From an uncultured Verrucomicrobia subdivision 3 bacterium (lineage in GTDB: Bacteria; Verrucomicrobiota; Verrucomicrobiia; Limisphaerales; UBA11358): DNA of 34,925 nucleotides. The position numbers and the translations under genes are program-made. Shown piece by piece: positions 7,592 through 16,431 of this stretch. Numbering within the stretch: position 1 is the first letter of the stretch; each line of letters starts with the position of its first letter. Location: NCBI GenBank assembly GCA_903888765.1, contig CAISVF010000029.1, positions 1-34,925 of the forward strand, read 5' to 3'. The notes under the pieces are model-generated. The model saw only the letters and a list, made by a program, of their open reading frames with translations. It was not told the DNA's origin and did no database searches.

Positions 7592-8236
7592 ATGTCCACT
7601 CCATTCTCACCCGAACCGCCCGATGCCGAATTGGTGCGTCGAGCCAAAGCCGGGGAGTTGGACGCTTTTGAGGCGTTGACCAACCGCTACGAGCAACGGG
7701 TTTATGGGCTGGCCATGCGGATGTTGCGACAGGCGCAGGATGCGGAGGATGTCACCCAACAAACTTTTCTCAGCGTGCTGGAAAACCTGGAGGGTTTTCG
7801 CGGCGACTCGAGTTTTTCCACCTGGGTGCTGCGCATCGCGAGCCATGCGGCGCTGAAAATCATCCGCAAACGAAAAGGTTTGCCCACCGTTTCGTTGGAA
7901 GAGGCGACGGAGCCTTCCGACAATATCAATTCCATTCCCCATCCGGAGTTCATCGCCGATTGGCGTCAGTCGCCGGCCCATCTGGTGGAACAGCATGAGG
8001 TCCGGCGTTTGTTGGATGATGCGCTGGCCCGGCTGGACGAAAAGTATCGGCTGGTTTTTTTGCTGCGGGATGCCGAGGGCTTGTCCGTCAAAGAAACTGC
8101 GGAAGCTCTGGAATTGAGCGAAGGCAACGTGAAAATACGGTTGCTGCGGGCGCGTTTACAGTTGCGCGAGGACTTAACCCGCGCACTGGGCGATCCGGCC
8201 CGCCAACTGGTTCGCTCGCCCCATCACCACCAATAA
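7592..8236 (+). CDS. ECF-family RNA polymerase sigma factor of the sulfur/redox island
   Basis: This 214-residue protein starts MSTPFSPEPPDAELVRRAKA. Region 2 is at about residues 25-95 (FEALTNRYEQRVYGLAMRML, AQDAEDVTQQTFLSVLENL, FSTWVLRIASHAALKIIRKR). Region 4 is at about 135-190 (LDDALARLDEKYRLVFLLRD, then the helix-turn-helix LSVKETAEALELSEGNVKIR). The true start is the ATG at 7592; a frame open from 6767 crosses the esterase gene in the opposite sense and has no sigma-like sequence before this point. The next gene encodes a zinc-binding anti-sigma factor. Four nearby ECF-like promoters (8256, 8611, 9896, 11826) are the natural candidates for its targets, though the assignment is inferred from proximity. 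Confidence 0.93.
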   Translation: MSTPFSPEPPDAELVRRAKAGELDAFEALTNRYEQRVYGLAMRMLRQAQDAEDVTQQTFLSVLENLEGFRGDSSFSTWVLRIASHAALKIIRKRKGLPTVSLEEATEPSDNINSIPHPEFIADWRQSPAHLVEQHEVRRLLDDALARLDEKYRLVFLLRDAEGLSVKETAEALELSEGNVKIRLLRARLQLREDLTRALGDPARQLVRSPHHHQ

Positions 8237-8255: not shown

Positions 8256-8283
8256 TTTGTAACTTTCGACCGGCTGGCGGCTC
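8256..8283 (+). promoter_or_regulatory. ECF-type promoter before the anti-sigma gene (site 1 of 4)
   Basis: TTTGTAACTTT at 8256-8266 and GCGGCTC at 8277-8283 are separated by exactly 10 bp, the same as at three other sites in the island. The first block resembles an ECF -35 (TGTAAC) and the second a -10 with a CGRCT core. Transcription would start near 8290, just before the AAGGAG Shine-Dalgarno at 8291-8296. This would give the anti-sigma gene its own sigma-dependent negative-feedback promoter. Confidence 0.7.
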
Positions 8284-8305
8284 GGTCTTCAAGGAGACAA
8301 AATCC

Positions 8306-8551
8306 ATGAAGTGCGAAGAATTACTGGCGATGTTGAATGAGTACGTGGACGGCACCGTGGATCCGGCCATCTGCGAGGAATTCGAAAGGCACATGGCGGG
8401 CTGCAATCCCTGCCAGGTGGTCGTGGATAATATTCGTCAGACGATCACGCTCTACCGGGATGGTCGGCCGCATGCATTGCCGATGCAGTTTCGCGAAAAA
8501 ATGCACGCCGACTTGCGCAAAAAGTGGAAAGAAAAATTCCCAGCTCAGTGA
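8306..8551 (+). CDS. Zinc-binding anti-sigma factor (zf-HC2/ZAS type)
   Basis: This 81-residue protein starts MKCEELLAMLNEYVDGTVDP and contains FERHMAGCNPC at about residues 27-37. That is the H-x3-C-x2-C zinc motif of ZAS anti-sigma factors such as RsrA and ChrR; Cys3 may complete the site. A good AAGGAG Shine-Dalgarno lies 9 bp before the ATG. There is no membrane segment, so it is cytoplasmic, as expected for a redox- or thiol-sensing anti-sigma factor rather than an envelope sensor. It follows the ECF sigma gene by 69 bp, and a copy of the shared promoter pattern lies in that gap. In related proteins oxidation of the zinc thiols releases sigma; that mechanism is inferred here. Confidence 0.88.
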   Translation: MKCEELLAMLNEYVDGTVDPAICEEFERHMAGCNPCQVVVDNIRQTITLYRDGRPHALPMQFREKMHADLRKKWKEKFPAQ

Positions 8552-8610: not shown

Positions 8611-8638
8611 TTTGTAACTTTTCCTCAATCTGCGACTC
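8611..8638 (+). promoter_or_regulatory. ECF-type promoter before the first YeeE/YedE gene (site 2 of 4)
   Basis: TTTGTAACTTT at 8611-8621 and GCGACTC at 8632-8638, spacing 10 bp. The transporter ATG is at 8652, only 13 bp after the -10 block, so the predicted transcript starts within a few bases of the start codon. No Shine-Dalgarno is visible, which agrees with a leaderless mRNA. Confidence 0.72.
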
Positions 8639-8651
8639 CAGCATTCTGGAT

Positions 8652-9227
8652 ATGAATAAATCAACCCATTCCTCCCAACCAGGCAGCGTCATCAGCCGGC
8701 CCGAAGCCAAAGCTCGCTGGAATCCTTATTTAGTCGGCATGGGGATTGGCGTCTTGAGCTGGTTCGCGTTTGGCGTCCTCGATGAACCGCTGGGTATTTC
8801 TACGGCCTTGTCGTCAGCCTCGAGCGTTTGTGCCCTTCCGGTGATCGGTGCCGAGGGTGTGGCGCATAACGCCTATTGGGCCAAAAACCCGCTGAAATGG
8901 AACGGCGGCATGTTGCTGCTCACGGGCACATTTCTAGGCAGTCTATTGAGTGTGCTGGTCAGCCATACGTTCAGGCTGGAGAAAGTCCCGATCACCTGGC
9001 AAAAGCAATTCGGTGGTTCCCCGGCGAAGCGTTTCGTGGCGGCTTTCTTCGGCGGCGTCATCATCATGTTTGGAGCCCGCCTGGCTGGCGGTTGCACGAG
9101 CGGACACGGCATCAGCGGTTCGCTCCAGTTGGCGTTAAGTAGTTGGACCTTCTTCCTGACTATGTTTGCCTCTGGTATCGTGACGGCTCTCCTTCTTTTT
9201 CCCAAACGCGTGGATTCCTCAAAATAA
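8652..9227 (+). CDS. YeeE/YedE family sulfur-compound transporter, first half
   Basis: The 191-residue membrane protein has about four hydrophobic segments (around residues 25-42, 80-102, 127-142 and 155-180). The signature GARLAGGCTSGHGISG near residue 143 carries the Cys-containing loop of the YeeE/YedE (TsuA, COG2391) family, which moves thiosulfate or related sulfur species through conserved cysteines. At 191 residues it is a half-length protein, and the partner half follows 24 bp downstream. This matches the split PmpA/PmpB type of transporter that is often linked to ArsR regulators and rhodaneses. The start at 8652 lies just downstream of the ECF-type promoter. The substrate is inferred, not shown. 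Confidence 0.88.
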   Translation: MNKSTHSSQPGSVISRPEAKARWNPYLVGMGIGVLSWFAFGVLDEPLGISTALSSASSVCALPVIGAEGVAHNAYWAKNPLKWNGGMLLLTGTFLGSLLSVLVSHTFRLEKVPITWQKQFGGSPAKRFVAAFFGGVIIMFGARLAGGCTSGHGISGSLQLALSSWTFFLTMFASGIVTALLLFPKRVDSSK

Positions 9228-9251
9228 ACCCGCTCGCTTATTTCTCGAATC

Positions 9252-9845
9252 ATGAATTTTCCTGTGTCGGCTGAAACTGCCCGCTGGCTTGCGCTTCCCT
9301 TGGGTTTGGTTTTTGGCGTCCTGTTGCATCGCGGCGGGGTCGCTAACTACAACGTGATTGTGAACCAGTTCCGGTTCAAGGATTTTACCGTTCTTAAAGT
9401 CATGTTCACGGCCATCATTGTCGGTGGCATCGGCGTGCTGCTGCTGAAAAGCACTGGCCACGCACAATATCATATCAAGCCGGCCAACATGCTCGGTGTG
9501 GTGCTGGGCGCCACGCTTTTCGGCGTGGGTATGGTGCTCTATGGTTATTGTCCCGGTACGGGCGTGGCGGCGATGGCCACAGGCAGCCTTCACGCGATGA
9601 TGGGCTTTGTCGGGATGCTGGTGGTCGGCGTGCTTTACGCGCTCAGCTTTACCTGGGTGGAAGCACATGTCCAGTCGGTCGCAGCGCTGGGTAAAGTGCG
9701 CCTCCCAGACATTACCGGCGTGCCGGATTGGGGTTGGTTCATCCTTCTTTCCGCCATTGCTGCCGTGATGTTCTGGCTGTTGGAAACCAGGTTCAAACCC
9801 GCTGCAGACCCGAAGGTTTTGAATGACAGCTCCCGCCAGATTTGA
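9252..9845 (+). CDS. YeeE/YedE family sulfur-compound transporter, second half (DUF6691 type)
   Basis: This 197-residue membrane protein opens with FPVSAETARWLALPLGLVFG and has about five hydrophobic segments. The YGYCPGTGVAAMATGS block near residue 100 holds the second family cysteine. Together with the preceding protein it rebuilds the two pseudo-symmetric halves found fused in TsuA-type thiosulfate channels. A third conserved phrase, LLHRGGVANYNVI, is typical of this half. The two genes are 24 bp apart and surely co-transcribed. Imported sulfur could feed the rhodanese encoded next, an inference from context. Confidence 0.88.
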   Translation: MNFPVSAETARWLALPLGLVFGVLLHRGGVANYNVIVNQFRFKDFTVLKVMFTAIIVGGIGVLLLKSTGHAQYHIKPANMLGVVLGATLFGVGMVLYGYCPGTGVAAMATGSLHAMMGFVGMLVVGVLYALSFTWVEAHVQSVAALGKVRLPDITGVPDWGWFILLSAIAAVMFWLLETRFKPAADPKVLNDSSRQI

Positions 9846-9895
9846 GGCATATGGCTATTTCATGTCCAAAGCGAACTTCGGATGGTAGATTCTTA

Positions 9896-9923
9896 ATTGT
9901 AACTTTTCTCTGATCTGCGGCTC
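9896..9923 (+). promoter_or_regulatory. ECF-type promoter before the small ORF and rhodanese gene (site 3 of 4)
   Basis: ATTGTAACTTT at 9896-9906 and GCGGCTC at 9917-9923 with 10 bp between. The only difference from the other sites in the first block is A for the first T. An ATG follows at 9933 and the rhodanese GTG at 10125, so either a 45-codon ORF or a leader of about 195 nt precedes the rhodanese. Confidence 0.68.
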
Positions 9924-9932
9924 AAAGCCGGC

Positions 9933-10070
9933 ATGGATTGTTTAATATGGATTCTGGCGGGCACCACTAGTCGGCCGATGTTGGCTGCCACGGATGTTTC
10001 TAGCCCGCGTTTATCTCCTAGTTTTCTGTTTCCCTGGCTTTTGTCCGGTAAAGAACTAATAAAGAAATAA
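9933..10070 (+). CDS. Possible small protein of 45 residues
   Basis: An ATG at 9933 opens 45 codons ending in TAA at 10068-10070. The product begins MDCLIWILAGTTSRPM, has a hydrophobic start with one Cys, a Ser/Pro-rich middle and a lysine-rich end (GKELIKK). It resembles no family I know. The case for it is position: its ATG lies 10 bp after the -10 block of the shared ECF-type promoter, the same geometry as the YeeE and DUF2892 genes (13 and 11 bp). It could be a true leaderless small protein, a leader peptide for the rhodanese gene, or chance. Confidence 0.35.
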   Translation: MDCLIWILAGTTSRPMLAATDVSSPRLSPSFLFPWLLSGKELIKK

Positions 10071-10124
10071 TCGGTCGAAAAAACGGCGAACAATGATACA
10101 GCAATTTGTAGGTGTTGGAATACT

Positions 10125-10499
10125 GTGAACGGAATCACAGTTTTACTGATCGCAACCCTCGTTGTGGTGGTGTTTTTTATCAAAAAGTCAGGCCAGATAT
10201 CGGCCCGGGATGCGCTGGAAAAACTCAAAGGCGGGGCGCCCGTTATTGACGTGCGAAGTGCTGCAGAGTTTCGATCCGGTCACTTGGCCCGGTCCGTCAA
10301 TATCCCGCTCGACGAAATTGAATCCGCGCTGCCACTGCGGGTGCCGGACAAACAGCAGGTGCTGCTGTTGCATTGCGCGAGCGGGATGCGCAGCGGCATG
10401 GCAAAAAGCAAATTGAAGGCCATGGGCTATGGTAATGCGCACAACCTCGGCTCGTATGGGCGGGCCGAAAAAATTGTCGCCCAAGCCACTGGTAATTAA
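10125..10499 (+). CDS. Membrane-anchored rhodanese (thiosulfate/persulfide sulfurtransferase)
   Basis: The protein is 124 residues from a GTG start. An N-terminal membrane anchor (ITVLLIATLVVVVFFI, residues 4-19) is followed by one rhodanese domain: PVIDVRSAAEFRSGHLARSV, and the active loop HCASGMRSGMAKSKL with the catalytic Cys near residue 85. Single-domain rhodaneses move sulfane sulfur from thiosulfate, polysulfide or glutathione persulfide to thiol acceptors. The domain faces the cytoplasm or periplasm depending on anchor orientation; the positive KKSG after the anchor favours cytoplasmic. It sits between the YeeE/YedE pair and a thioredoxin gene 10 bp downstream, a coherent sulfur-relay set. 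Confidence 0.9.
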   Translation: MNGITVLLIATLVVVVFFIKKSGQISARDALEKLKGGAPVIDVRSAAEFRSGHLARSVNIPLDEIESALPLRVPDKQQVLLLHCASGMRSGMAKSKLKAMGYGNAHNLGSYGRAEKIVAQATGN

Positions 10500-10509
10500 T
10501 GGATTCAAT

Positions 10510-11082
10510 ATGACCCCGATACTCTTGATTTACCTCGCCATGGGGGCTGCCGTGGGCGGTGCGCTGGGACATTTTCGTCGCTGCCAATCCGGAGCCTGTC
10601 CGCTGATTGCGAATTGGCGGCGGGGTGCACTTTTTGGTGCGCTCATGGGTGTGTTGGTTTATTTCACGACCGGCGGCGGCGAAAATTCCGCGACGATGAA
10701 CCTATCCACTGCGCACGTTAAACACATCACGGAAGCGGAGTTCGCTGCCGAGGTGACGGAAGCGGAGCTGCCGGTCGTGGTGGATTTTTATGCGACCTGG
10801 TGTGGTCCATGCCGTCAACTTGCGCCCCGGATGGACAGTCTGGCGGATCAGTATGCGGGGAAAATTAAGTTTGTGAAAATCAACGTGGACGAATCACCCA
10901 AGCTGGCCAAACAATTCCAGGTCGAGGGCATTCCCCTGCTGGTGTTTCTCCAGCATGGCAAAACCGTGGGCACATCTGTCGGCTTGGCCGCGAAGGATGA
11001 GTTGATCCTGCGACTGGATGCGTTGCTCCACATGAATCTGCCACCTCCGGCCGATCAGCCTGCTTCGGATCAACCTAAATAA
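10510..11082 (+). CDS. DUF6132-thioredoxin fusion protein
   Basis: The ATG at 10510 gives 190 residues. The N-terminal 60 residues form a small two-helix membrane module with the phrase RRCQSGACPLIANWRRG, as in DUF6132 proteins usually encoded alone beside YeeE and rhodanese genes. A thioredoxin domain follows at about residues 75-175 with FYATWCGPCRQLAPRMDSLA, so the redox pair is Cys-Gly-Pro-Cys near residues 97-100. The cis-proline block GIPLLVFLQHGKTV is present and the tail is Pro-rich. The fusion probably tethers thioredoxin to the membrane to reduce persulfides or a transporter Cys. A longer frame from 10429 overlaps the rhodanese and is unlikely. Confidence 0.88.
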   Translation: MTPILLIYLAMGAAVGGALGHFRRCQSGACPLIANWRRGALFGALMGVLVYFTTGGGENSATMNLSTAHVKHITEAEFAAEVTEAELPVVVDFYATWCGPCRQLAPRMDSLADQYAGKIKFVKINVDESPKLAKQFQVEGIPLLVFLQHGKTVGTSVGLAAKDELILRLDALLHMNLPPPADQPASDQPK

Positions 11083-11244
11083 AACCAATTCCCTGGTCGG
11101 CCAATCAAACCGGCGCACGTAACCGGCTGCTGCAGTAATAATTTAACCGATGCTTATGGCTGGGGCGAACAATCGAGTGCGGATTCATCGCCAGCGCTGG
11201 GAATACCAATTGCTGCGCAAGCATGCCAATATACGCCCGTTGTC

Positions 11245-11709
11245 ATGAGTAATGGCTTTGTTGCGCGCGGCGGGCGGTGGGTGGTAGGACAGTTTTTGCT
11301 CCTATGCGCCATAGCCATTTTAGGCATCACTTGTCAGGCAGCGCCGAAGTCGTTGCCCATGGTTTTTTGCGGTAGCGCTTTTTTTGTGGTGTCCGCCATC
11401 TGTGGTTTGTCCGGGACGCTGGCTTTGGGAAGGAATCTGACACCTTTCCCTAGGCCAACTGCGACCGCGATGCTGGTGCAGCATGGCATTTACGCTCGCC
11501 TCCGGCATCCGCTTTACACTGCGGTATTTTGCGCCGTCCTGGGCTGGTCGCTCGTTTGGCAAAGCTGGCCGGCTTTGGCCTTTTCCCTGGCGCTGGGTGT
11601 GTTTTTTGATGCCAAAGCCCGACGGGAAGAATCCTGGCTGCGAGAGAAGTTTCCGGAGTATCCGGATTATGAGCGACGCGTACGTCGATTCATTCCGTGG
11701 ATTTACTGA
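11245..11709 (+). CDS. Isoprenylcysteine carboxyl methyltransferase-like membrane protein
   Basis: This 154-residue protein has hydrophobic segments near residues 12-30, 38-58 and 85-115. The conserved C-terminal core is GIYARLRHPLYTAVF followed by REESWLREKFPEYPDYERRV, the S-adenosylmethionine-binding signature of the ICMT/phospholipid methyltransferase (PEMT-like) group. Bacterial members are common beside sulfur, thiol and metal-resistance genes, where their substrate is unknown. The ATG at 11245 is preceded by a 162-bp gap after the thioredoxin gene. Confidence 0.8.
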   Translation: MSNGFVARGGRWVVGQFLLLCAIAILGITCQAAPKSLPMVFCGSAFFVVSAICGLSGTLALGRNLTPFPRPTATAMLVQHGIYARLRHPLYTAVFCAVLGWSLVWQSWPALAFSLALGVFFDAKARREESWLREKFPEYPDYERRVRRFIPWIY

Positions 11710-11825
11710 TTGACCGTGCGATTCCCGGTTTGCGCATGGCGACCAGTTTTCGTTGAACATTGGCAGTTGCCTTCAGCCTCCATCCTTGTCCGGCTGATTT
11801 AGCCGTATGTCGGTCGTCTGAATCC

Positions 11826-11853
11826 TTTGTAACTTTTCTGCGACTCGCGGCTC
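11826..11853 (+). promoter_or_regulatory. ECF-type promoter before the DUF2892-RND operon (site 4 of 4)
   Basis: TTTGTAACTTT at 11826-11836 and GCGGCTC at 11847-11853 with 10 bp between. The DUF2892 ATG is at 11865, 11 bp after the -10 block. The efflux genes follow with small gaps or overlaps, so this site may drive 11865-17876 as one transcript. Confidence 0.72.
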
Positions 11854-11864
11854 GGTATGAGCGT

Positions 11865-12098
11865 ATGAAACTGCATCTGATTATCCGCCGGTTTGCCGGC
11901 ACGTTCATTCTCGCGAGCCTGGTGCTCGCGCATTACCACAGCCCGAACTGGCTCTGGTTCACCGCGTTTGTGGGCTTTAATCTGCTACAATCATCGTTCA
12001 CAAATTTCTGCCCGCTGGAAATCGTGTTGAAGAAAATGGGCGTGGGCGGGTCTTGCTGTAGCAACGAGAAAAAGTCTGACAGCTCGTGCTGTTTTTGA
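11865..12098 (+). CDS. DUF2892-type inner-membrane protein with a cysteine-rich tail
   Basis: The 77-residue protein starts MKLHLIIRRFAGTFILASLV. It has two short membrane helices and the DUF2892 (YgaP-like) block FVGFNLLQSSFTNFCPLEIV. In other bacteria this module is fused to rhodanese domains or encoded next to them. The C-terminus GGSCCSNEKKSDSSCCF holds two Cys pairs that could bind a metal or form persulfides. The start was set at 11865; a frame open from 11760 lies across the promoter. The gene is 17 bp ahead of the efflux adaptor gene. Confidence 0.85.
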   Translation: MKLHLIIRRFAGTFILASLVLAHYHSPNWLWFTAFVGFNLLQSSFTNFCPLEIVLKKMGVGGSCCSNEKKSDSSCCF

Positions 12099-12115: not shown

Positions 12116-13135
12116 ATGAAACGCCTTCTGCTTTCAACACTCGTCGCGGCGATTCCGTTTTTCTCAGGTTGCCACAAGGTAGCGGAACAAACCCAAATGG
12201 AATTGCCGTCCGCCACTGTTCGCGTCCAGACCGTAGAGCGCAAGTCGCGCGCCGCTACCGAGGATGTCGTTGGCACGGTGCGCCCGAAATTGAGTTCGGT
12301 GGTGGAGGCGAAAGTCAGCGGGCGCATCGAGCAATTGCTGGTTGTTCCTGGCCAGTTGGTGAAAGCCGGTGAAAAGCTGGTGCTGGTGGATGCGCATGAA
12401 ATCAAGTCGCGACTGGATCAAGCCGCCGCCGCCCGGCAACAGGCTGAGAGCGAATTGAAACGCGACACGGATTTGATGCAGCAGAAAATCCTTTCTGCGG
12501 CAGAATTCGACACCGCGCAGTCCAAGTTTCGCATCGCCGCTGCCGCTGAAGCGGAAGCGAAATCCATGCTCGACTACACCCTGATTGTCGCGCCGTTTGA
12601 CGGGGTCATCACGCGCAAGATCGCCGATGTGGGCGACCTGGCCGCGCCGGGCAAGCCACTACTGCAAATGGAAAACCCCGACACCCTGCGCCTCGAAGCC
12701 GATGTGCCGGAGGCCCTGATCGGCAATGTGAAGCTCGGCGAAAAACTCGCCGTGCATATTGCCGCCGTCACCAGTGAAACTGTAGGCACAGTTGCTGAGT
12801 TGTCCCCCACGGCTGACTCCAACAGCCGCACCTATCTGGTGAAACTGGATTTGGCGGGCGCACCAGGTTTACGTTCCGGGCAATTCGGACGGGTCTCGGT
12901 TCCGGTTGGTGACGTGAGTGCGATTCACGTTTCCGCTGCCGCTGTCATTCAGCGCGGACAGATGGAATTGGTATTTGTCGTGGCGGGAAATCATGCACAA
13001 ATGCGCCTCGTCAAAACGGGGAGTCGCGTGGGCGATGAGATCGAACTGGTTTCCGGGTTGAACTCCGGGGAACAAGTCGTGGTGGATGGTGCGGCGGCAT
13101 TGGCGGATGGGCAATCGGTGAAAATCCAGCCATGA
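12116..13135 (+). CDS. RND efflux periplasmic adaptor lipoprotein (membrane fusion protein)
   Basis: This 339-residue protein has a lipoprotein signal [19 protein letters not shown] with Cys at about residue 19. The family core follows: a barrel-sandwich half ([31 protein letters not shown]), an alpha-hairpin with Gln/Ala/Glu-rich sequence at about residues 105-155, the second half ([20 protein letters not shown]), and beta-barrel and membrane-proximal parts. It links the inner-membrane pump to an outer-membrane channel. Its stop overlaps the pump ATG as ATGA. No TolC-type outer-membrane factor is encoded in the window. Confidence 0.92.
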
Positions 13136-16100
13136 AAGCCGACCCATCCAATTCAGCCGGTGCGTCAGCTGGGATTGCCGGGCGCATTGCGCAGTCGTTC
13201 ATTGATTCCAAGCTGACGCTACTCATTGTGATCGCGTCCCTGCTGCTCGGCGGGTTTGCCGTGGTAATGCTGCCGCGCGAAGAGGAGCCGCAAATCAAAG
13301 TGCCGATGGTGGATGTGCTGGTGGCCATGCCGGGGTTTCACGCGAAGGAAGTCGAGGAGCGCGCCACCCGCCCGATGGAAAAGCTCCTCTGGGAGATTCC
13401 CGGCGTGGAATATATCTATTCGACTTCCAGCGAGGGCCAGTCCACGGTCATCGTGCGCTTCAAGGTCGGCGAAAACATGGAGAGCAGCCTGGTTAAGTTG
13501 AACCAGAAGTTGCAGCAGAATTTCGACAAGATTCCCCACGGCGTTTCCACGCCGTTAATCAAAGCGCGGACAATTGATGATGTGCCGATTCTGGCGCTGA
13601 CCATTCACAGTTCGCATTACGATCACCTCATGTTGCGGCGGCTGGCCGCGCAAGTGGATGATGCGATTAAGCAAGTGCCGTTGGTGGCCGAGACCACCAT
13701 TATCGGCGGCGCACAACGGCAAGTGCGCGTGCTCCTGGACCCGGTGCGGCTGGCGTCGCGCAATCTTTCGCCCGCCGGCCTGGTGCCGATGCTGCAACAG
13801 GCCAATAAGCAATACTCCGCCGGCAGCCTGACCAGCGATAACCATGAAATCATCGTGGAAACCGGCGCATTTTTGCAAACTGCGGATGACGTGGGCAACG
13901 TGATGGCGGGGGCCTATTCCGGCAGGCCGGTTTATCTTCGCGATGTGGCGGATATCAAAGACGGCGCGGAAGAACCGAGCCAATATGTTTTCTTCGGCTC
14001 CGGTTCGGCGGACAAGATTTCCGCCGATGAGCCGGCGGTAACGATCTCCATCGCCAAGCGGCCCGGCGCGAACGCCATTTCCGTCGCCCGGCAGGTCTTG
14101 AAGAAAGTGGACACGCTGAAGGGCTACCTCATCCCGGCGGATGTCCAGGTCAGCGTTACGCGGAATTACGGGGTGACGGCGGAGGACAAATCCAACGAAC
14201 TGCTCTGGCACATGCTGCTAGCGGTGGTCAGCGTGTCGCTTTTGATTCTGGTCGTGCTGGGCTGGCGTGAATCTCTCATCGTGGGGCTGGCGATTCCGGC
14301 GACCCTAGCGCTGACCTTGCTGGTTTTTTATCTTTACGGCTTCACGTTGAATCGCATCACCCTGTTCGCGCTCATTTTCTCCATCGGCATCCTCGTGGAT
14401 GACGCCATTGTCGTGGTGGAAAACATCGTGCGCCATTTCCATCTGCCGGAAAGCAAGGGCCGCAGCCGGATGGCCGTGGCTATTGAGGCGGTGGGCGAAG
14501 TTGGCAATCCGACCATCCTTGCCACCTTCGCGGTGATTGCCGCCGTGCTGCCGATGGCCTTCGTAGGCGGGCTGATGGGGCCGTATATGCGGCCAATTCC
14601 CATTGGGGCGAGTGCGGCGATGTTTTTCTCGCTGGCGATTTCCTTCATCGTGACGCCTTGGGCGGCCATCCGCATTTTGCAATGGCGGAACAAAATTAAC
14701 GCGACTGCCAGCCACGCGCCCGATCGCGAATCCGCCAGCGAAAATTTCTTTGGCCGGATGTATCGCGGGCTGATGACGCCGCTGATTGCCAGCGCCAAAC
14801 GGCGTTATCAATTTCTGGCCGCGCTCGTAGTGCTGCTGCTCGGCTCTATGACCTTGGTCTATGCCGGCTGGGTGAAGGTGAAAATGCTGCCGTTTGACAA
14901 CAAGAGTGAATTTCAAATCATCCTGAACATGCCGGAAGGCAGTTCGCTCGAACTGACCGCCCAGGCCGCCCGTGAAATCGCCTCGACCGTCCGCACTGAA
15001 CCGGAGGTCACGGATTACGAAATTTATGCCGGGGTTGCATCACCGTTCAATTTCAACGGCCTCGTGCGCCATTATTTCATGCGCCGAGGCGCAAGTGTGG
15101 CTGATTTGCAAATCAACCTCGTGCCGAAGAACGAACGCAAAGCGCAAAGCCACGACATTGCCAAGCGCGTGCGTCCGCGCGTGGCGGAGATCGCGGCGAA
15201 ATTTGGCGCTCGCGTGGCCGTGGCTGAGGTGCCGCCCGGCCCGCCGGTGCTACAAACCTTGGTCGCCGAAATTTACGGGCCAACGGAAGAAAACCGTTTG
15301 AAGCTGGCGCATAAGGTGATGGATATTTTCCACAGCACCCCTGGTGTCGTGGACACGGATTGGTATATCGAAGCGGACCAGCCGAAAGTCGAATTCGTGA
15401 TTGATAAGGAAAAGGCGGCGCTGCATGGCATCAGCGCGGAGACGATATCGCAAACGCTGAAAATCGCCGTGGGCGGCGAGTCGGTGGATTTGCTGCACGT
15501 TCCGCGCGAGAAAGAAGACGTAAACATTGTCCTGCAACTGCCGCTCGCCAGCCGCAGCCACCCGGAAGAACTGCTTGCCCTGCGCGTGCGCTCCGGCGAC
15601 GCCAACGCCCTGCCCGAACCCGTCTTGATTGCCACTGGTGGCCAACCGCAAGGTTCGCCGCTGGTGCCTTTGCGCGAGTTGGTGAAAGTGCGTCAAACCA
15701 TCACTGACAAGAGCATCTATCATAAAAATCTGATGCCAGTCACCTACGTCATCGGCGATGTGGCGGGCGTGGTGGAAAGCCCGGTGTATGCCATTTTGAA
15801 AATGAATGAGGCGCTGGCACAGGTCGGCACGCGCGACTGTGGCGGCGACGGGACCCCGCTGAAAATCTATAATGCGGTCCTGCCCTTCTCGGATCAGCAG
15901 CCGTCGCTGAAATGGGATGGCGAATGGCACATCACCATTGAAGTCTTCCGCGACCTCGGCCTGGCGTTCGCCGTCGTGCTCGTGCTGATTTACGTTTTGA
16001 TGGTCGGCTGGTTCAGGTCGTTCCTCACGCCGCTGATAGTGATGGTGGTGATTCCTTTTTCGCTCATCGGTGTGCTACCGGCGCATGGGGTGCTGCACGC

Positions 16101-16431
16101 CTTTTTCACCGCCACTTCCATGATCGGCTTCATGGCCGGCGCGGGCATCGTGGTGCGCAATGCCATTATCCTGGTGGACTTCATCGAGATAAGGCTGGCC
16201 GAAGGTCAGCCGCTATCCGAAGCGGTGATTGAAGCGGGCTTGATCCGCTTCCGTCCCATCCTGCTTACCGCGCTAGCCGTGGTGGCGGGTGCCTCCGTGA
16301 TTCTGACGGATCCCATTTTTCAAGGACTGGCCATCGCGCTGATGGCGGGGAGTTTGATCTCCATGTTCACCGCCCCGGTCCTGGTGCCACTCCTATATTT
16401 CATGGCAAATAATCACCACAAGAAATCATGA
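13132..16431 (+). CDS. RND-family inner-membrane efflux transporter
   Basis: The 1099-residue protein has the AcrB-like layout: TM1 near residues 25-45, a large periplasmic loop, TM2-TM6 at about residues 360-525, TM7 near 560-580, a second loop, and TM8-TM12 at about 945-1095. [14 protein letters not shown] near residue 420 carries the Asp pair of the proton relay of the HAE1 group. It lacks the obvious CusA-type methionine cluster, so a drug, lipid or organic substrate is as likely as a metal. Starts and ends with ATGA overlaps, coupled to the adaptor upstream and the ferredoxin-like gene downstream. Context (sulfur and thiol stress) suggests export of a toxic or thiol-linked compound. Confidence 0.93.

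Follow-up and report, generated by a model that had tools for sequence, protein, structure and literature searches.

Does one family of promoters, within a single bacterial stress regulon, give rise to messages that are translated in two different ways? The question is raised by the window analyzed here, a stretch of 34,925 nucleotides (nt) from an uncultured Verrucomicrobia subdivision 3 bacterium (assembly GCA_903888765.1, contig CAISVF010000029.1, forward strand), in which the gene for an anti-sigma factor and three further start codons each follow a putative promoter of the extracytoplasmic function (ECF) type. The original prediction was that the effectors are translated from leaderless or near-leaderless mRNAs and the anti-sigma factor differently, led by a Shine-Dalgarno (SD) sequence, and that this could alter the balance between them under stress. 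The account that we favor, and consider reasonably probable, is another: a zinc-finger anti-sigma/ECF regulon concerned with thiols and sulfur, with feedback through the anti-sigma factor only and with short leaders in a lineage that is poor in SD sequences.

The ECF sigma factor gene (7592–8236; 214 aa) encodes both region 2 and region 4 (Pfam Sigma70_r2, 1e-17; Sigma70_r4_2, 1.2e-16; TIGR02937, 2.6e-34) and adjoins the gene for an 81-aa, RsrA-like zf-HC2 anti-sigma factor (8306–8551; Pfam zf-HC2, 2.7e-10), as expected of an ECF/zinc-finger regulon; these and the other window features described here lie on the + strand. A search of the window for TGTAACTTT-N8..14-CGRCTC (R, purine) returned four copies, always with a spacer of 11 nt, and none in 100 shuffles. 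Promoter 1, TGTAACTTT-N11-CGGCTC-GGT, lies between the sigma and anti-sigma genes (8258–8286; two-part match 8258–8283); the others are at 8613–8641 (promoter 2; match 8613–8638), 9898–9926 (promoter 3; match 9898–9923) and 11828–11856 (promoter 4; match 11828–11853). The same two-part promoter thus stands upstream of the anti-sigma gene and of the presumed targets of the regulon. With spacers of 10–12 nt, these four copies are the only ones in the entire 5.4 Mb assembly, where the reversed pattern gave none. Further regulon members in the genome were sought by allowing two mismatches, but this added only six, where the reversed control gave 45, a number attributable to chance.

The linkage between site and anti-sigma gene holds well beyond the window. 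Among 320 genomes of the order, 52 contain a total of 86 sites (the window's four included; 16 for reversed controls by our own column count), and 79 of the 86 have the N11 spacer. An anti-sigma homolog is present in 46 of the 52 genomes with the motif as opposed to 27 of the 268 others (Fisher, 8e-30); in four of the six motif genomes that lack one, every site has an N10 or N12 spacer. A second set of loci was fetched by similarity to the anti-sigma protein rather than by the motif, many from the same genomes as the first, and includes, by our own assignment of phyla, 58 verrucomicrobial, 17 planctomycete and three acidobacterial loci; among named assemblies, those of Verrucomicrobia subdivision 3/Limisphaerales hold the nearest relatives of the anti-sigma gene. 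When the 200 nt upstream of the anti-sigma gene were scored (maximum 24, threshold 19), a site was found in 56 of the 58 verrucomicrobial loci, with a score reached by none of 80 shuffled upstream regions.

The sigma gene itself stands apart from this arrangement. Autoregulation of the sigma gene by its own promoter is usual for ECF regulons, but not universal. Upstream of the window's sigma gene the motif is absent (best score 14 of 24), as it is upstream of the best same-strand sigma homolog in all 56 testable loci of relatives (81 were tried; the top score was 18 against the threshold of 19), and a sigma gene within 1.5 kb downstream is listed for none of the 86 sites. The arrangement in the window and in loci L166–L245 (L-numbers denote loci of relatives), with the promoter placed between the two genes and none detected ahead of the sigma gene wherever the scan was possible, would mean feedback through the anti-sigma factor only. 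What appears to be conserved is a circuit whose regulon promoter governs the anti-sigma gene and the effectors and apparently leaves out the sigma gene. In the mechanism that we propose, the sigma factor is held by the zinc-finger anti-sigma factor and would, on activation, drive the four promoters, whose −10 elements lie 9–22 nt before a start codon. Since its own gene lacks such a promoter, activation would increase the levels of anti-sigma factor and effectors without raising that of the sigma factor, and the feedback would be negative only.

The regulon probably responds to thiol or reactive-sulfur stress, as we infer from targets that belong to the YeeE/YedE, rhodanese, thioredoxin and YgaP-like families (the Pfam scan covered ten proteins of the window). 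Promoter 2 precedes two YeeE/YedE-type sulfur transport half-proteins (8652–9227, 191 aa, Pfam Sulf_transp 3.7e-21; 9252–9845, 197 aa, 3.2e-19). Promoter 3 is followed by a 45-codon open reading frame (ORF; 9933–10070), a rhodanese with an N-terminal hydrophobic stretch and a GTG start (10125–10499; Pfam Rhodanese, 5.2e-13) and a DUF6132-thioredoxin fusion (10510–11082; Pfam Thioredoxin, 9.7e-31; DUF6132, 1.4e-13), and promoter 4 by a YgaP-like small membrane protein of 77 aa (11865–12098; Pfam YgaP-like_TM, 6.1e-11). Genes that follow the sites in relatives encode thioredoxins, a C_GCAxxG_C_C redox protein and a pyridine nucleotide-disulfide oxidoreductase containing a rhodanese domain, though a universal stress protein and a DUF302 protein occur among their products too.

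Conservation of the −10 element extends beyond CGRCTC as RRT, and the variants TGGCTC and AGGCTC suggest that its core is GGCTCRRT. Downstream of it, pyrimidine-purine (YR) steps peak at bases 9/10 (48 of 79 N11 sites; 39 of 69 clusters), beyond which the sequence is purine-rich and poor in T; the next-highest position, bases 3/4 (36 of 79), falls within the conserved element. At eight of the 79 sites an ATG lies exactly at base 10, among them those of the YgaP-like gene of four relatives, the C_GCAxxG_C_C gene and the DUF302 gene, and at the 62 sites to which a start codon could be assigned none is nearer to the −10 than 8 nt. On these three grounds +1 was placed at base 10, which suggests transcription start sites (TSSs) at 8293, 8648, 9933 (the A of the ATG) and 11863, and leaders of 13, 4, 0 and 2 nt, the prediction being accurate perhaps to 4–5 nt. 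Promoter 1 has A rather than a pyrimidine at base 9, a weaker initiator, and its +1 may be at 8291. Initiation some 10 nt past CGRCTC would thus yield mRNAs with leaders of 0–13 nt.

The distances from which the original prediction started are as it gave them: the −10 block lies 13, 9 and 11 nt before the ATGs at 8652, 9933 and 11865, and none of the three has an SD match of at least 4 nt at −18..−4. Within the window only the anti-sigma gene has a longer spacing (22 nt to 8306) together with a good AAGGAG (8291–8296, 9 nt before the ATG). Predicted leaders of 4, 0 and 2 nt leave no room for an SD in the transcript, and all three starts are ATG (although in one relative, L092, the codon at base 10 is GTG). 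As a prediction, leaderless or near-leaderless effector transcripts draw support from site geometry, the YR peak and orthologs with an ATG at base 10, except that the ORF at 9933 is a gene remnant, as described below.

Leaders measured from the predicted +1 to the homology-assigned start codon are short in relatives too, although not uniformly so. Of the 62 assigned sites (a few with ambiguous starts, e.g., L048 and L098), 16 have leaders of up to 5 nt, 27 of 6–15 nt, 14 of 16–30 nt and five longer ones; 43 are thus no longer than 15 nt, and only four of the 62 have an SD match of at least 5 nt within the leader. Of nine YgaP-like leaders, six measure 0–2 nt and the others 24, 81 and 88 nt; YeeE leaders are 4, 9 and 10 nt, and rhodanese leaders are −1, 42 and 83 nt; in L088 the rhodanese ATG is at the promoter itself, 8 nt away. 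Thioredoxin-type leaders are 19–26 nt in nine of 14 cases and 4–16 nt in the others. Of two relatives with a site before the C_GCAxxG_C_C gene (at 7151 in L086 and at 4003 in L094, both on the − strand), one has the ATG at base 10 and the other 29 nt further on, so leader length varies between relatives.

SD matches themselves are no more frequent in the sampled stretches of the window's genome than expected by chance. Of 121 crudely called starts, 23 have a match of at least 4 nt, compared with 23 control positions and 20–23 shuffled ones, and eight have a match of at least 5 nt; 520 genes of related loci gave 107 matches of at least 4 nt versus 116 (control) and 119 (shuffled). By the same crude method a stretch of E. 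coli yielded 20 matches of at least 4 nt among 36 starts, compared with seven (control) and 10 (shuffled), while its 5-nt counts (3, 2 and 3) did not rise above the controls even in this species. The missing SD at the three effector starts is consequently not informative. PMC10783764 lists the verrucomicrobial genus Akkermansia as SD-scarce too. In such a lineage the short-leadered mRNAs would be translated without an SD, that of the anti-sigma factor included.

This last point bears directly on the claim that an SD leads translation of the anti-sigma factor but not of the effectors. Beyond the spacing and AAGGAG of the window, the claim could call on three other site-linked anti-sigma genes (L063, L082 and L092) with a 4-nt match at −18..−4, but none of these matches lies downstream of the predicted +1. 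The window's AAGGAG itself straddles the predicted +1, and with transcription beginning at base 10 only GGAG would be transcribed. All 24 directly site-linked anti-sigma genes have predicted leaders of 3–15 nt, and the window's is the only one with an SD match of at least 4 nt within the leader (none of the other 23). The 56 site-bearing verrucomicrobial loci fetched by protein have leaders of 3–17 nt, with a match in the leader of at least 4 nt in nine and of at least 5 nt in one; at −18..−4 regardless of leader, a 6-nt match is found in none of the 58, which makes AAGGAG exceptional. The SD is therefore not a retained feature of anti-sigma orthologs, nor are long leaders a mark of the anti-sigma gene, as the nine longer thioredoxin-type leaders exceed all 24 anti-sigma leaders of the same table. 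Given also that SD matches in the sampled genes do not exceed chance, we regard the proposed division of labor as very improbable: a shift of balance by differential translation finds no support beyond a single genome, of which the contrast is probably a peculiarity.

The ORF at 9933 invites a different explanation. Alignment to intact relatives indicates that it is not an intact effector but opens what is left, after a frameshift, of a small YgaP-like membrane-protein gene: promoter, ATG and ∼10 codons are kept, a 29-nt alignment gap then puts the sequence out of frame, the remnant continues in another frame, and the 45 codons have no Pfam match. Intact orthologs behind a site of the 9898 type (L086, L087, L090 and L095) encode a YgaP-like membrane protein of 68–72 aa with the ATG at base 10 (Pfam YgaP-like_TM, 2.3e-8 for L095), and differ pairwise over 60 codons by 11–17 synonymous and 4–11 non-synonymous changes. 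Retention of promoter and ATG in an otherwise broken gene, together with a rhodanese that begins 54 nt past the stop of the ORF, might be taken as a sign that the ORF encodes a working leader peptide, itself leaderless, that controls the rhodanese-thioredoxin genes. However, its tail is the out-of-frame residue of the membrane-protein gene, and in L043, L077 and L096 the gene is lost or broken in different ways while the promoter stays, as decay predicts; a leader peptide seems to us distinctly improbable. Somewhat less so, but still unlikely, is that start codons have been misassigned or that transcripts start elsewhere, from other promoters, by read-through or with translation from later codons. 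There is precedent in Bradyrhizobium japonicum EcfF, where a mapped TSS coincided with the annotated ATG and the start codon was reassigned by the authors to a position further downstream (PMC3420878), and all four terminator-like sites on the + strand of the window lie within genes, with none between them. Against this, YgaP-like homology in relatives begins at residue 1, the ATG of this gene stays at 11 nt in four relatives, four intact orthologs of the small protein at 9933 share the base-10 ATG, and the first YeeE gene has no in-frame start codon for the next 87 nt.

Several observations count against the account of short leaders and anti-sigma-only feedback. The anti-sigma gene is present, and an exact motif match absent, in 27 genomes. 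At −18..−4, 18 of the 58 verrucomicrobial anti-sigma loci have an SD match of at least 4 nt and six of at least 5 nt, somewhat above the 23 and eight of 121 for ordinary genes, which slightly lowers our confidence. At the similar GTAAC promoter of Bradyrhizobium EcfF transcription was mapped to begin 6 bp beyond the −10 box (PMC3420878); by analogy, the TSSs could lie a few nt upstream of where we place them, in which event some short SD matches would fall within leaders. With terminator-like sites confined to genes, leadered read-through transcripts may coexist with short ones. A search of the assembly for the 16S 3′ end, at up to two mismatches, gave no match, the start calls behind the SD statistics are crude, and 24 of the 86 sites were dropped from the table of leaders because no homolog fixes the start.

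Anti-sigma genes of other phyla present a different picture. In Planctomycetes a recognizable site occurs at eight of 17 loci, seven of these eight have leaders of 25–27 nt with GAGGA in the leader, and all 17 anti-sigma genes have an SD match of at least 4 nt at −18..−4 (about nine are AGGA and some loci are near-duplicates). The three acidobacterial loci all have a 6-nt match; the site is found in two, near-identical, with 15-nt leaders containing GGAGGT. Yet 64 larger genes of the planctomycete loci (L220–L245) have SD matches at chance level (17, compared with 18), so the difference between phyla sits at the anti-sigma gene and is not explained by genome-wide SD use alone, contrary to a simple lineage-wide account. 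We suggest, tentatively and at somewhat less than even odds, that in SD-poor Verrucomicrobia the regulon promoters have been drawn onto start codons, such that sigma binding sets the AUG near the 5′ end of the mRNA, that of the anti-sigma factor included. If so, one conserved stress circuit would offer a natural experiment on how translation initiation switches from one mode to another: with promoters of one kind, the anti-sigma leader is short and nearly always lacks an SD in Verrucomicrobia (56 loci), and bears one in the loci of Planctomycetes (eight) and Acidobacteria (two) that retain a recognizable site. A translational contrast within one genome is thereby replaced by a testable comparative account.

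The regulon itself appears to be real, well defined and ordinary in kind, its transcripts being near-leaderless by prediction. It shares with RsrA/SigR the adjacent genes for an ECF and a small zf-HC2 anti-sigma factor as well as thioredoxin-type targets, and RsrA is the best NCBIfam match; however, at 34.1 bits the match falls short of the curated cut-off of TIGR03988 (62.5), as would be needed for an equivalog, and here the sigma gene is without a site (none of 56). The SigR consensus differs from the TGTAAC/GGCTC promoter seen here. Gammaproteobacterial RpoE has a different anti-sigma factor, and its promoters have GAACTT and TCTAC-type elements where those of the window have TGTAAC and GGCTCRRT. 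The two are nonetheless alike in geometry, the spacing xAACTT-N16-TC matching the Shewanella RpoE promoters tabulated in PMC4336711. Bradyrhizobium EcfF, of group ECF16 (with Caulobacter SigF), is described in PMC3420878 as having a GTAAC −35 and a TSS on an annotated start codon, which here is predicted; it differs in a −10 of CG(t,a) at longer spacing, in OsrA, a DUF1109 membrane anti-sigma factor, and in an autoregulated sigma operon. The BigR-controlled yeeE-yedE-pdo2 operon similarly pairs YeeE/YedE genes under reactive-sulfur control in the account of PMC7315123, but with a repressor in place of an ECF sigma factor; no persulfide dioxygenase is found among the ten window proteins scanned.

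Leaderless mRNAs of Actinobacteria, Deinococcus and Sinorhizobium likewise have the start codon at the 5′ end and prefer AUG, as reported in PMC3616915 and PMC3160421, whereas those of the regulon are predicted only and set by an ECF promoter, and many members have leaders of 3–26 nt. The name Verrucomicrobia does not occur in the main text of the leaderless-gene survey in PMC3160421, and the literature matches listed include no paper on leaderless mRNAs in this phylum or on the ECF motif. A genome-wide leaderless signature, TANNNT 6 nt before starts, peaked at 19 of 641 genes where 3.6 were expected (clustering left 18 of 588, with an expectation of 3.3) and was mostly rejected, as 12 of the 19 listed rows are in-frame TAA or TAG, an artefact of calling starts from the longest ORF. 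TAYNNT alone, with gaps of 5–7 nt before the start, gave 15 against 4.4 among the 588 clustered starts of the order in a test made after the peak was seen, an excess that faintly suggests a limited number of leaderless genes served by sigma-70.

Two further elements of the locus complete its description. Downstream of promoter 4 and its YgaP-like gene are genes for an RND efflux adaptor and permease (12116–16431; HlyD_D23, 1.6e-22; RND_mfp, 8.6e-66; RND permease, 4.4e-131, below its cut-off). Between the thioredoxin fusion and promoter 4 lies a gene for an ICMT/PEMT-like membrane methyltransferase (11245–11709; Pfam PEMT, 2.6e-11), and in six other genomes (L049, L050, L052, L056, L058 and L069) an ICMT-like methyltransferase gene ends less than 400 nt upstream of the anti-sigma promoter.

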